Shown here one piece after another: positions 24,394 through 28,089 of a stretch of 37,026 nt of DNA (positions are counted from its first letter, which is position 1; each line of letters starts with the position of its first letter). Source of the DNA: Cyanobacteriota bacterium (GTDB taxonomy: Bacteria > Cyanobacteriota > Vampirovibrionia > LMEP-6097); contig JAQCFG010000016.1 in assembly GCA_027618255.1 (NCBI GenBank), positions 1 to 37,026 on the forward strand, in the 5' to 3' direction. Position numbers and translations under genes: made by a program. Under the pieces are notes generated by a model. It saw only the letters and a list, made by a program, of their open reading frames with translations, was not told where the DNA came from and did not search any database.

Positions 24394-25056
24394 TTAAGTG
24401 CTCGCTTCAGAGCTACCTGCTGCTGCTTTTAGGGCAATACCCTTATCAGCACTAGCACCACTTGAACTGGTCGTTGAACTTGTTATTGCAGAGCTATTTG
24501 CATTAGTTGGACTAGCCAAACCTTTACTAGCTACTTCCTCAGAGCCTGCCTTTGGAGCTTCGGCTTCTTTAGTAGGGACAGCTGCTTGCTCCACAGATGC
24601 TTTTTGTAATTTCGCTACTTCAGCTAGAATTTCTACTTGGGTCATTGGTTTATCAGAACGTACTATGTCATCACCAGTAAACTTAGTGAGCCCGGGAGCC
24701 TTACTAGAACTGTCTTTGCTAGTAGTCTTAGCATCATCCTTTTTCTCTTGAATTTGTTTTTTGTTTTTGTCTTTAGCTTCTTCTTTCTTAATCGCATCTT
24801 CTTGCTTAGCTTCCCTTTCATTACTTGCAACTTTACGTTCATAACTTTCTGCCTGTCTATGCTGTGCAGAAGCAGCAGCCTTCTCCGAAATCGCAAATGC
24901 TAAATCAGCCATAGCTTTGGCAACTTTGGCTTTGAGGCCTTCGGATTCATTGGGACCAGCATTAGACTCGTCTCTGATTGCTATGGAAAATGCTATTTGA
25001 GCCTGGCTTGCACTTTGAGCTGCGTCATTTAATTCTTGTCTTGATTCAATCGTCAT
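24394..25056 (-). CDS. Unrecognised Ala/Lys/Ser-rich low-complexity protein
   Basis: 220 residues, not recognised. Residues 1-85 are Ala-rich and probably helical (QELNDAAQSASQAQIAFSIA; AKAMADLAFAISEKAAASAQ). Residues 85-120 are a Lys/Glu/Asp-rich coil, followed by a short conserved-looking LTKFTGDDIVRSDKPMTQVEILAEVAKLQKA. The last ~60 residues are Ser/Ala/Thr-rich and disordered (SAITSSTTSSSGASADKG). There is no signal peptide. AAAAGGA lies about 12 nt before the ATG. The motif TTAACCGAAGCATAA is 55 nt further upstream and a strong terminator follows, so it is a single-gene unit under the same apparent control as the next two genes. Confidence 0.65.
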   Translation of the reverse strand: MTIESRQELNDAAQSASQAQIAFSIAIRDESNAGPNESEGLKAKVAKAMADLAFAISEKAAASAQHRQAESYERKVASNEREAKQEDAIKKEEAKDKNKKQIQEKKDDAKTTSKDSSSKAPGLTKFTGDDIVRSDKPMTQVEILAEVAKLQKASVEQAAVPTKEAEAPKAGSEEVASKGLASPTNANSSAITSSTTSSSGASADKGIALKAAAGSSEAST

Positions 25057-25190: not shown

Positions 25191-26654
25191 ATGGACAAAG
25201 CAATTAAATACCCAGAGATACTCAGCTCTAATATAAAAGCAATTAGCGCAATCATGGCCCCAATCCGAGCAAGCATCGGCCCTAAAGGCTTAGACGTAAT
25301 GTTGGTTGATGAGTTTGGAGCATTTACTTGCACTAATGATGGCGTTGAAATTCTTTCTAATATCAAAATCGATCACCCAGTTGCCAAATTAGCAGTTGAA
25401 GCAGCAAAATCACAAGAAACTCAAGTTGGTGATGGTACCAGTACTGTTGCAATCTTGTGTGATTCAATACTTCAAGCAGCACTTGAAAAAATTAATCTTG
25501 GCGCTAGCCCAAATAGGATTGCAGAAGGGATCAACATTGCCAATACACAAATCCTCAAAGAACTTCAAGCAAGCTCAATTCAAATCAAAGACCTTAAAGA
25601 CCCTGCTCTTAAAGCAATTAGTAAAATCTCAGCAAGAGGTTCAGAGGAGATTGCCAGCTTGATAACTGAAGCAATGAACAAATCTCAAGATCCAAATGAT
25701 TTAGCCAATTCAATTATTGCTCGTTGCGGCTTAGAATCCAAAGTGCTTGATGGACATTTCATTAAGAAAAAAACTCATTTTAAATACTCACGAGAATTTA
25801 GGAATATCAACCTAATTCTGGTTCAGGGTCCAATGGAACCAGAACCGATGAGCAGTGAAGCTATCAACACCAATGAAGGTGTCAAGAAATACGAAAACAA
25901 TATTCAGTCGTTAATGGAAGCTGCCAAAAAGATCATCAAAGCCGGTACCCAAGCGATTATTTGCTCAGCTTCGATGTTTCCAGCAATGGAGGAATTCTTT
26001 GCCAAAGAAGGTGTCTTTGTTTTAACTCACGTCAAAGATTCTGATATCAAAGCATTAGAAAAAATCTCCGGAGCAAAATTAATTACAAGAAATCAATTAA
26101 TCAGCTCTGATATAGAAACACTCAAAACCCTTAATAGCAAACTTAATTCCATTATTCTTGCTGAAGAGCTTGGTGGGTTTATTTTTCAAGGACCCAAAGC
26201 ACAAAGAGCAAGTATTTTAATTTCGGCAGAAACTGAAACCATCTTAAATGAACGCACACGTATAATAATTGATGCTTGCAAAGCAATGGCAGCTGCAGCC
26301 AAATCAGGTTATGTCTTAGGAGAAGGTATTGCAGAATTGAATATCATTCCTGCTATCGAAAAACTCAAAACTCAATATCAAGATGAAGAAATCATTTTGG
26401 GTATTGAAGTGATGATCAAAGCGCTGAGTACTGTATTTGATCAAATCGTATTAAATGCTGGTTTTAATCCTCACGAACTTAAAAACAAACTCAAGTCTTT
26501 GGGTACTGGCATTGATTTATCAACCGGCTCAAGTATTGACTTAATAGAACAAGGTATTCTAGATCCTCTTACTGTTAAAAGCTCGGCTTTCAAAATTGCT
26601 ACAGAAATAGCTTGTCAAATTTTGAGGATTAATATGATTGTGCAGGCTAGATAG
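25191..26654 (+). CDS. Archaeal-like (group II/III, TCP-1 family) chaperonin homologue
   Basis: 487 residues. The sequence follows thermosome/CCT chaperonins rather than GroEL. Evidence is IGPKGLDVMLVDEFG (29-43), TNDGVEIL (48-55), HPVAKLAVEAAKSQETQVGD (62-81) with the ATP-binding GDGTST (80-85), and the ending DPLTVKSSAFKIATEIACQILRI (458-480). D361 (in IIIDACKAM) lies at the catalytic aspartate position. GEG (377-379) replaces the usual GGG. An apical segment at about 213-245 could be the helical protrusion that replaces GroES in this group. It is ~40-60 residues shorter than typical thermosome subunits, mainly lacking the flexible tail. Bacterial archaeal-like chaperonins (group III) are known mostly in Firmicutes next to dnaK; here leuC-aroA follow. 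No groES-like gene is nearby. Confidence 0.88.
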   Translation: MDKAIKYPEILSSNIKAISAIMAPIRASIGPKGLDVMLVDEFGAFTCTNDGVEILSNIKIDHPVAKLAVEAAKSQETQVGDGTSTVAILCDSILQAALEKINLGASPNRIAEGINIANTQILKELQASSIQIKDLKDPALKAISKISARGSEEIASLITEAMNKSQDPNDLANSIIARCGLESKVLDGHFIKKKTHFKYSREFRNINLILVQGPMEPEPMSSEAINTNEGVKKYENNIQSLMEAAKKIIKAGTQAIICSASMFPAMEEFFAKEGVFVLTHVKDSDIKALEKISGAKLITRNQLISSDIETLKTLNSKLNSIILAEELGGFIFQGPKAQRASILISAETETILNERTRIIIDACKAMAAAAKSGYVLGEGIAELNIIPAIEKLKTQYQDEEIILGIEVMIKALSTVFDQIVLNAGFNPHELKNKLKSLGTGIDLSTGSSIDLIEQGILDPLTVKSSAFKIATEIACQILRINMIVQAR

Positions 26655-26728
26655 ATGAAAGTCCGTCCATTATTTTTTCTTTAGTTTTGCTCTCGTCCAT
26701 GCTTGAAAAAGCAGACGGGGCCTTAATT

Positions 26729-26737
26729 TGCTAAAAT
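26729..26737 (+). promoter_or_regulatory. Extended -10 box before leuC
   Basis: TGC-TAAAAT ends 8 nt before the leuC ATG at 26746, without a Shine-Dalgarno sequence. A small hairpin, TGCTT-GAAA-AAGCA (26700-26713), lies just upstream. Confidence 0.45.
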
Positions 26738-26745
26738 CACTAATC

Positions 26746-28089
26746 ATGGCAAAGAATTTATTTGAAAAAGTATGGGACACGCATGTAGTTGAAGAACTAG
26801 CTGGTGAAAACTATCTAATATTTATGGATAGAATTGTTGCTCATGAAATTACTACTCCTCAAGGTGCTATTCAAATTGATGAAGAGTTTGGTGGGAGAAT
26901 TTTTGATACTAATAGAATATTGGCAATTAATGACCACGTTGCTCCAGCCAAAGATACTGCAACAGCAATTCAAGCTGAAGTCTTGCGCAAATGGGCAAAG
27001 AAACACAATATACGTCACTTTGATATTGGCGAGAATGGCATCTGTCATATCGTGGCTCCAGAAAGAGGTTACGTAGAACCAGGCACTACTTTGTGTTGCG
27101 GGGACTCACACACTTGTACCAATGGCGCTTTTGCATGTTTTGCTTTAGGTATCGGTACTACTGCCAATGCTGGCGCGATGTTGTCTCAATGTCTTTTACT
27201 CAAAAAACCAAAAGTAATGAGAATCAATGTAACTGGCAAACTCAAACCAGGTGTCTATGCCAAAGACATCATCCTTGCAATCATCAACAAAATTAGTTTT
27301 AGAGGCGGCACTGGTTATGTGCTTGAATACACAGGTAATGCAATTACTGACTTGAGTATGGAAGAGCGCATGACTGTATGCAATATGGCAATTGAAGCAG
27401 GTGCGACCAGTGGCATGATTGCCGCTGATGAAGTTACACTTGAATACCTCAAAGGCAAAGAACAAATCTCAGACAACAAATTTGCTGAAATGAAAGACAA
27501 GTGGTTAAGCTTTAGAGCAGACGAAGGCGCGACTTATGACGCTGAAGTTGAACTTGATATTAATGACCTTGATCCAATGGTGACTTGGGGAATCAATCCT
27601 GGAGAGGCTTGCCAGACTACTGGAGAAATCCCAGCAGATGCTGAAGACAAAGCATTAGAGTATATGGGAGTTAAGCCCGGCGACAAAATGGCTAGCTTAG
27701 AACTTGATCAAGCATTTATTGGTAGTTGTACTAACGCAAGAATTTCTGATTTGCGTATTGCTGCTGAAATTCTCAAAGGCAAAAAAGTAGCAATCCCAAC
27801 AATCATCACTCCTGGTTCGCAATTAGTGAAACGTCAAGCTGAGAAAGAAGGGCTTCATGATATTTTTCAAGATGCTGGTGCGCTTTGGACTCATGCAAGT
27901 TGTGGCCCTTGCCTAGGAATGAGCATGGGTGTTGTAGCTCCGCAAAATCGTTGCATCTCATCAACCAACCGTAACTTTCCTGGACGTATGGGCGCTGGTG
28001 CTAGAACTCATTTGGCAAGTCCGGCGACCGTGGCAGCGTCAGCCTTAACCGGTAAGATCACCGCTGCAAAACCACTAGTCACAAAATAA
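26746..28089 (+). CDS. leuC: 3-isopropylmalate dehydratase large subunit
   Basis: 447 residues from the ATG at 26746 (MAKNLFEKVWDTHVV, the family start); six codons of upstream open frame are not used. It is an aconitase-family [4Fe-4S] hydro-lyase that isomerises 2- to 3-isopropylmalate in leucine synthesis. The cluster cysteines are C328 (GSCTNARISDLR), C386 and C389 (CGPC). CGDSHTCTNGAF and GGTGYVLEYTG fit the bacterial LeuC branch. The enzyme needs the small LeuD subunit, which is not in this window. The TAA shares its last base with the aroA ATG, so the two are translationally coupled. Homoaconitase is the main alternative assignment. Confidence 0.9.
   Translation: MAKNLFEKVWDTHVVEELAGENYLIFMDRIVAHEITTPQGAIQIDEEFGGRIFDTNRILAINDHVAPAKDTATAIQAEVLRKWAKKHNIRHFDIGENGICHIVAPERGYVEPGTTLCCGDSHTCTNGAFACFALGIGTTANAGAMLSQCLLLKKPKVMRINVTGKLKPGVYAKDIILAIINKISFRGGTGYVLEYTGNAITDLSMEERMTVCNMAIEAGATSGMIAADEVTLEYLKGKEQISDNKFAEMKDKWLSFRADEGATYDAEVELDINDLDPMVTWGINPGEACQTTGEIPADAEDKALEYMGVKPGDKMASLELDQAFIGSCTNARISDLRIAAEILKGKKVAIPTIITPGSQLVKRQAEKEGLHDIFQDAGALWTHASCGPCLGMSMGVVAPQNRCISSTNRNFPGRMGAGARTHLASPATVAASALTGKITAAKPLVTK

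Follow-up and report, generated by a model that had tools for sequence, protein, structure and literature searches.

The window analyzed here, a 37,026-nucleotide stretch of a genome labeled Cyanobacteriota bacterium, carries an ORF that is real, given that its product matches the Pfam family Cpn60_TCP1 far above chance (294 bits, E = 2.6e-87, residues 25 to 486 of the 487-amino-acid protein) (Table 1). The protein ends in ...INMIVQAR, without a Gly-Met tail, and the GC content of its gene is 0.372, compared with 0.391 for the window. The surrounding genes are ordinary bacterial ones, namely, leuC, aroA, a poly(A)-polymerase-head/tRNA-nucleotidyltransferase-like gene, a W/Y-type tRNA synthetase, an M50 peptidase with a PDZ domain, and others. 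On the other side, neither the divergent low-complexity gene P3 nor two further genes behind it produced a Pfam match.

Table 1. Genes of the chaperonin locus and sites within the chaperonin gene, in window coordinates
Feature	Position	Strand	Basis or remark
P3, divergent low-complexity gene (context only)	24394..25056	-	No Pfam match
Group III chaperonin gene	25191..26654	+	ATG start, 487 aa plus stop, no internal stop
Asp50, catalytic (Ch-CPN Asp56)	25338..25340	+	8/8 f1, 3/3 f5
GDGT phosphate-binding motif, residues 80-83	25428..25439	+	Alignment; Ch-CPN has GDGTTT
Leu103-Gly-Ala105, site of Ch-CPN Lys109 and Val111, both replaced	25497..25505	+	Alignment
Arg149, Group III gamma-phosphate arginine in shortened loop (Ch-CPN Arg155)	25635..25637	+	Alignment
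Apical lid helices, residues 222-250	25854..25940	+	AlphaFold2 model
Asp361, catalytic (Ch-CPN Asp373)	26271..26273	+	8/8 f1, 3/3 f5
GEG for GGG, residues 377-379	26319..26327	+	Alignment
Glu400 to Leu403, site of Ch-CPN Met411 and Tyr414, replaced	26388..26399	+	Alignment
His428, site of Ch-CPN Leu439 (inter-ring pivot)	26472..26474	+	Alignment; 7-residue deletion after
leuC	26728..28089	+	73 bases downstream; NCBIfam PRK12466, 532 bits

The window is contig C16 of a genome (G000; 1.99 Mb, 104 contigs, 95.7% complete, 0.75% contamination) that belongs to a Melainabacterium of the Caenarcaniphilales type, equipped with normal GroEL/GroES. Its other chaperonin is a normal-length GroEL whose tail is rich in Gly and Met; it is encoded on contig C6 next to GroES, and GroES adjoins GroEL in all nine genomes of the family. 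A profile built from 11 proteins detected the gene of the window in 11 of the 382 genomes of the class, at 607 to 765 bits, and the next-best match, at 165 bits, lay in a frame of GroEL length, leaving a clean gap. The carriers belong to two families: that of the window, denoted f1 (G000 to G008), where the gene is present in eight of nine genomes and the ninth (G008) is only 54% complete, and a second, denoted f5 (G012, G017, G022, G027, and G036), where it is present in three of five. In a 292-genome sample of the phylum Cyanobacteriota, no genome besides the window's own passed an E value of 1e-60; in a 249-genome sample of the phylum of Seinonella (G542), 85 passed. A scan of named genomes, which was limited by its search pattern and is not a survey, returned 96 stretches, of which 16 were relatives; these are mostly labeled Candidatus Melainabacteria, Caenarcanales, or Caenarcaniphilales, and the nearest (JABHOV010000073.1, isolate SI037S4_bin4) is 95% identical. 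Among viruses, a likewise pattern-limited search gave 10 pattern matches and no true relatives. The gene is therefore a lineage-specific second chaperonin within the Melainabacteria. No chaperonin report for this order was found in the open-license PMC literature.

Several observations made along the way concern other genomes. Group III genes were also seen in metagenome-assembled genomes of other phyla, namely, Gloeobacterales ES-bin-141 (L052) and Armatimonadetes (L051 and L055). In the f5 genome G012, two chaperonin C-terminal fragments (contig C88, 7592 to 7816 and 8571 to 8771; L039), one of them with an inner stop, lie downstream of the intact gene, which suggests a decayed duplication. 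The label of L049 (JAAFJH010000047.1), Synechococcales cyanobacterium, looks wrong; the position of its gene is that of the Melainabacterial contig C88 of G012.

To assign the protein to a chaperonin group, sequence searches, structure comparison, and diagnostic residues were combined. Against the PDB, the best sequence match was 9rwq (289 bits), followed by the Group III chaperonin of Carboxydothermus hydrogenoformans, Ch-CPN (5x9u, 228 bits), 9rwp (176 bits), thermosomes (∼173 bits), and GroEL (∼112 bits). The molecule name of 9rwq in the sequence file is ACII, and the entry title and the paper identify it as the Group III ancestor ACIII. Thermosome models scored 222 bits versus at most 169 bits for GroEL models, all under the curated cutoffs of those models. 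An AlphaFold2 model derived from 17 sequences has a confident full-length fold (mean pLDDT 90.4, pTM 0.83). Foldseek ranked the closed and open states of Ch-CPN first and second, at 30% identity, and VIA-align placed ACIII on top (Z = 42.6, 329 aligned residues, 1.8 Å). However, the GroEL, Group II, and Ch-CPN rows fall within a few Z units of ACIII, so the fold alone is insufficient to determine the group, and individual characters, namely, the arginine and the missing loop described below, assign it better.

The first of these characters is Arg149, which corresponds to the gamma-phosphate arginine of Group III chaperonins: its column contains Arg in all 8 f1 proteins, all 3 f5 proteins, and all 35 Group III references but in none of the 6 Group II proteins or the 21 GroELs. 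The six-residue nucleotide-sensing loop of Group II is a gap in the f1, f5, and Group III rows, as opposed to three Group II rows, and because the GroEL rows lack these columns as well, the gap separates f1 from Group II only. The lid is modeled as helices at residues 222 to 225 and 228 to 250; in the alignment it is equal in length to that of Ch-CPN and shorter than that of Group II, and GroEL has no lid columns. The lid tip of f1 is still mostly hydrophobic but has lost both Phe residues, and the way in which clients or partners bind may therefore be different. The nucleotide site is well preserved in f1 (0.68 identity and 0.95 similarity over 15 positions), with Asp50, Asp81, Arg149, and Asp361 retained in 8/8 proteins of the alignment. 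A substitution there, GEG for GGG, falls on the nucleotide-contacting backbone; the middle position is Glu in four of the eight f1 proteins and Gly in the other four, in 3/3 f5 proteins, and in 35/35 references.

Phylogenetic analysis points to the same group. In a careful tree of 33 rows, f1 and f5 form a clade (support 100/99) inside Group III (95/84), and Group II (100/100) and GroEL (100/100) stand apart. The long f1 stem branch (1.84) is the weak point of this placement. In approximately unbiased (AU) tests, a grouping of f1 with GroEL was rejected (P = 0.0145, 33-row set), and a grouping with Group II was not firmly rejected (P = 0.085 with 33 rows and 0.536 with 49 rows). The first, quick trees made f1 the sister to all other Group III sequences; constraining f1 and f5 to be together raised the likelihood over these trees, and the 33-row tree then recovered this clade unconstrained. 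Three sequences were dropped before all trees: III_L115 and I_L015, which were in the wrong frame or had no GDGT, and L111, which repeats the gene of L054; near-duplicates were left out of the 49-row and 33-row trees, and the latter also omitted several of the longest or oddest rows, among them F1_G004, F1_G005, and L052. By its characters and its position in the tree, the protein is thus assigned to the Group III, or “archaeal-like bacterial,” chaperonins. Membership in Group I conflicts with the AU rejection, the presence of a lid, and the lack of a Gly-Met tail, and membership in Group II with the absent loop and the separate clade, although the constraint joining f1 to Group II was not firmly rejected.

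An earlier note, made from this DNA alone, had described a thermosome-like chaperonin that was archaeal-like and possibly Group III rather than GroEL, with GEG in place of GGG, a missing C-terminal tail, and a possible helical protrusion, and had proposed phylogeny with the three groups, structure prediction of the ring and lid, and a search for groEL and groES elsewhere in the genome. All of these features are borne out by the present results, the protrusion being the modeled lid helices, and groEL and groES were located on contig C6. Neither of the two outcomes that the note had named as counting against it was obtained: a grouping with GroEL is rejected, and base composition, synteny, and the wide presence in the family speak against contamination or a very recent transfer. 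The protein may, as the note further suggested, be specialized for a few clients. The suggestion of a new branch needs amending: f1 is a distinct, fast-evolving branch, but the tree places it as a clade within Group III and not as a group beside it.

Sequence divergence within f1 is high, with 32 to 41% identity between most genera and 95%, 74%, and 65% among the closest pairs listed. Nevertheless, dN/dS, obtained by a simple Nei-Gojobori count, is low for the chaperonin (0.055 for G000/G001, 0.059 for G003/G007, and 0.077 for the f5 pair G012/G036) and similar to the values for leuC (0.066) and aroA (0.058). The f1 chaperonins have evolved fast yet under strong purifying selection. Given the low dN/dS, the catalytic residues retained throughout f1, and a GC content near that of the window, this is a selected, native gene. 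Two other genes of the window differ sharply in rate: P3 evolves very fast (dN/dS of 0.57 for G000/G001), and P1 (22509 to 23174), which has no Pfam match and is found in eight of nine family genomes, is among the slowest (0.017).

The genes of published Group III chaperonins covered in PMC5635000 are located in a dnaK operon, with one exception, an arrangement that is typical but not defining. In the Bacillota-type loci from the Seinonella-phylum sample (L097 to L126), DnaK-coding DNA is present within ∼1.5 kb in 29 of 30, and the thirtieth (L123) is cut short. In the Melainabacteria, dnaK and the chaperonin gene are on different contigs in all eight genomes tested; in G000, dnaK is on C28, and the contig of the window contains none. 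Similarly, DnaK was detected in none of the 10 Melainabacterial loci L032 to L041, some of which are short (6.5 to 19 kb). Two further loci, L051 and L057 (labeled Symbiobacterium), have no DnaK within 18 to 21 kb. The association with dnaK may therefore be less strict than published; for L052 and L055, the stretches are not long enough to judge. Prefoldin_2 was found in none of the nine family genomes, with four archaeal controls positive. A search with the consensus of the HrcA/CIRCE element, allowing up to 3 mismatches, yielded no match in either the window or the GroEL locus (16 kb), a result that says little because the GroEL locus gave none either.

The gene neighborhood varies among carriers. 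In five f1 genomes (G000, G001, G002, G004, and G005), the gene precedes leuC, aroA, and the tRNA-nucleotidyltransferase-like gene, and in the other three (G003, G006, and G007), it is near a nucleotide-sugar gene and a GTPase-like gene. Among f5 genomes, it follows a gene with a ribosomal protein S13-like start in G012 and G036 and adjoins a gene with a MurG-like start in G022; all these names were read from N termini, except for leuC, aroA, and the nucleotidyltransferase. The known clients of chaperonins include aconitase-type proteins, and leuC was considered as a linked gene and rejected: it is the same-strand neighbor in five of eight genomes and is elsewhere in three. Cotranscription of the chaperonin gene with leuC is possible, and the shared strand is at best a hint of coexpression. 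P1 was also rejected as a fixed partner; it is on another contig in G002, G003, G005, G006, and G007. Thus, the gene does lie outside the dnaK context and between the divergent gene and leuC-aroA, as the earlier note had it, but its neighbors do not hold as fixed partners, with the chaperonin elsewhere in three genomes and P1 and leuC persisting apart from it.

The f1 proteins also differ from other Group III chaperonins at the contacts that join the two rings. According to the structural account in PMC5635000, the ring-ring residues of closed Ch-CPN are L439, K109, V111, M411, Y414, and the E102-K109 pair, and all six positions are altered in f1. The 439 position is Leu in 35/35 references and 3/3 f5 proteins and is H, H, A, K, a gap, Q, E, and N in f1, with deletions of at least three residues after it in 8/8. 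V111 is conserved in 34/35 references and 3/3 f5 proteins but in 0/8 f1 proteins; Y414 is Tyr or Phe in 35/35 references, Tyr in 3/3 f5 proteins, and neither in any f1 protein; K109 is Lys or Arg in 32/35 references, Lys in 3/3 f5 proteins, and neither in the eight f1 proteins; and E102 is Glu in 27/35 references, 3/3 f5 proteins, and 0/8 f1 proteins. Five inter-ring positions (111, 405, 411, 414, and 439) reach at least 80% conservation among the references; here, f1 keeps 0.00 identity and 0.20 similarity, compared with 0.52 and 0.76 at 121 conserved equatorial positions. Random draws were as low in 0.17% (identity) and 0.07% (similarity) of cases; the positions came from the paper, but the loss had already been observed before the test, so these P values are post hoc. 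By similarity, f1 keeps 0 or 1 of the 5 key residues and f5 keeps all 5; L052 and L056, which diverge most among the Group III references, retain 4 and 5, respectively, but are less divergent than f1 (0.66 to 0.69 versus 0.38 to 0.50). These comparisons predict a changed ring-ring interface in f1. Part of the loss may be general surface drift because the intra-ring contact residues named in PMC5635000 are also poorly kept (0.15 identity and 0.40 similarity for the five conserved ones). The main intra-ring joint, where the stem loop meets the C-terminal strand, seems from the alignment to be preserved in f1, and a ring is therefore still expected. At the Ch-CPN intra-ring pair Asn76-Glu362, all eight f1 proteins combine an acidic residue (Glu or Asp) with Thr or Ser, which could be a compensating swap that preserves the contact.

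Taken together, these features make it probable that the f1 protein is an active, self-lidded Group III ATPase cage, independent of DnaK, whose ring-ring interface was lost or rebuilt; the latter point is suggested because the contacts that join the Ch-CPN octamers are gone. For and against a rebuilt interface, under which the protein would still form a stable double ring held by other, mostly polar contacts, the case is evenly balanced. Position 411 is acidic in all six f1 proteins that have a residue there, as it is (Asp or Glu) in 21/21 GroELs, a hint that the interface could be charged; the ring-ring contacts of GroEL and Group II are of other kinds, and purifying selection acts over the whole protein. 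On the other hand, no common replacement is shared by f1 at positions 102, 109, 111, and 439, and the deletions after the 439 site affect every f1 protein. The interface might instead be gone altogether. A chaperonin that is naturally single-ringed and carries its own lid, which would have shed the second ring along with the DnaK link and been selected beside GroEL/GroES, is a tentative possibility: the changes at six of six closed-state positions agree with it, and the L439 position aligns with the E461-to-V464 region of GroEL, the site of three of the four single-ring SR1 changes. However, the test behind it is post hoc and spans five positions, and intra-ring residues drift too.

Two further explanations deny the working cage or its bacterial history. 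Some chaperonin-like proteins, such as BBS/MKKS, serve as holdases or assembly factors, and by analogy the f1 protein might be a degenerate, noncycling relative. The fast divergence, GEG in half of the family, the loss of the lid-tip Phe residues, and the loss of peripheral intra-ring contacts are compatible with this idea, but the retention of Asp50, Asp81, Arg149, and Asp361 in all eight proteins, the preserved stem loop and C-terminal strand pattern, the dN/dS of 0.055, and the confident full-length fold make it improbable. It is far less probable still that a true archaeal thermosome gene was recently transferred or entered the assembly by contamination, a possibility that the earlier note had itself named. 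The thermosome-like scores and the AU test, which does not firmly exclude Group II, are the points in its favor, but the base composition matches the window, the neighbors are bacterial and syntenic with those of relatives, and the characters are those of Group III; moreover, the gene is present in eight of nine family genomes, has diverged to 32 to 41% identity between most genera, and is at most ∼27% identical to haloarchaeal plasmid thermosomes among the matches listed.

Under the preferred reading, an active cage with a lost or rebuilt interface, the f1 protein would be an ATP-driven folding ring that uses its apical helices as its own lid and operates alongside ordinary GroEL/GroES. By comparison with Ch-CPN, ATP binding would draw the stem loop and the intermediate domain together, the apical domains would then turn inward so that the helical lid shuts around the client, and ATP hydrolysis would reopen it. 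Clients would arrive without an operon-coupled DnaK or prefoldin, and each ring would work with less dependence on the other or entirely by itself. Uncoupling of the rings would not necessarily halt this cycle because the Hill coefficient of Ch-CPN is near 1. As for the origin of the gene, the simplest view is that f1 and f5 owe it to a single acquisition or inheritance, and the tree is silent on the source. The gene may have been present in an ancestor shared by both Caenarcaniphilales families or passed between them, with fast evolution in f1 afterwards.

Among known systems, Ch-CPN (5x9u and 5x9v), as characterized in PMC5635000, shares with the window protein the fold, the catalytic residues, the gamma-phosphate Arg, the lack of a nucleotide-sensing loop, the short helical lid, and coexistence with GroEL/GroES. 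Unlike Ch-CPN, the window protein is not encoded beside dnaK, is 30% identical in the structural match, lacks the ring-ring contact residues, and is shortened by several deletions within its intermediate and equatorial domains; in f1, the lid-tip Phe residues are replaced by Val, Leu, or Ile, and GGG by GEG in half of the family. ACIII (9rwq), the closest match in both PDB sequence search and VIA-align, was seen as eight-subunit double rings in the data reported in PMC12696368, whereas in the f1 protein the contacts of rings of this kind are missing. Group II thermosomes and CCT have the built-in lid and general fold in common with the window protein but differ in their six-residue nucleotide-sensing loop, longer lid, and Thr or Ser at the arginine column, and they work with prefoldin, for which the window family gave no match. 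Ring independence, only predicted for f1, is known from the single rings of mitochondrial Hsp60, the phage EL and OBP chaperonins, and ACI, as covered in PMC5934643 and PMC12696368, but these are Group I or phage proteins, whereas f1 is Group III with a built-in lid. For Group II, ACII is presented by Severino et al. (PMC12696368) as, to the authors' knowledge, the first single-ring structure reported.

Three things give the f1 chaperonin its value: the lineage that carries it, its separation from dnaK, and a ring-ring interface that is predicted to be lost. It adds a Cyanobacteriota-related lineage to the debate over the origin of Group III. Because f1 and f5 keep the gene without the operon, the question of whether Group III chaperonins need DnaK is now testable, as is that of whether a self-lidded chaperonin needs two rings. 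The two families, f5 with the interface kept and f1 with its predicted loss, offer natural sister states in which ring number, cooperativity, and folding can be compared. If true, a self-lidded chaperonin that naturally functions as one ring would represent a new working state.
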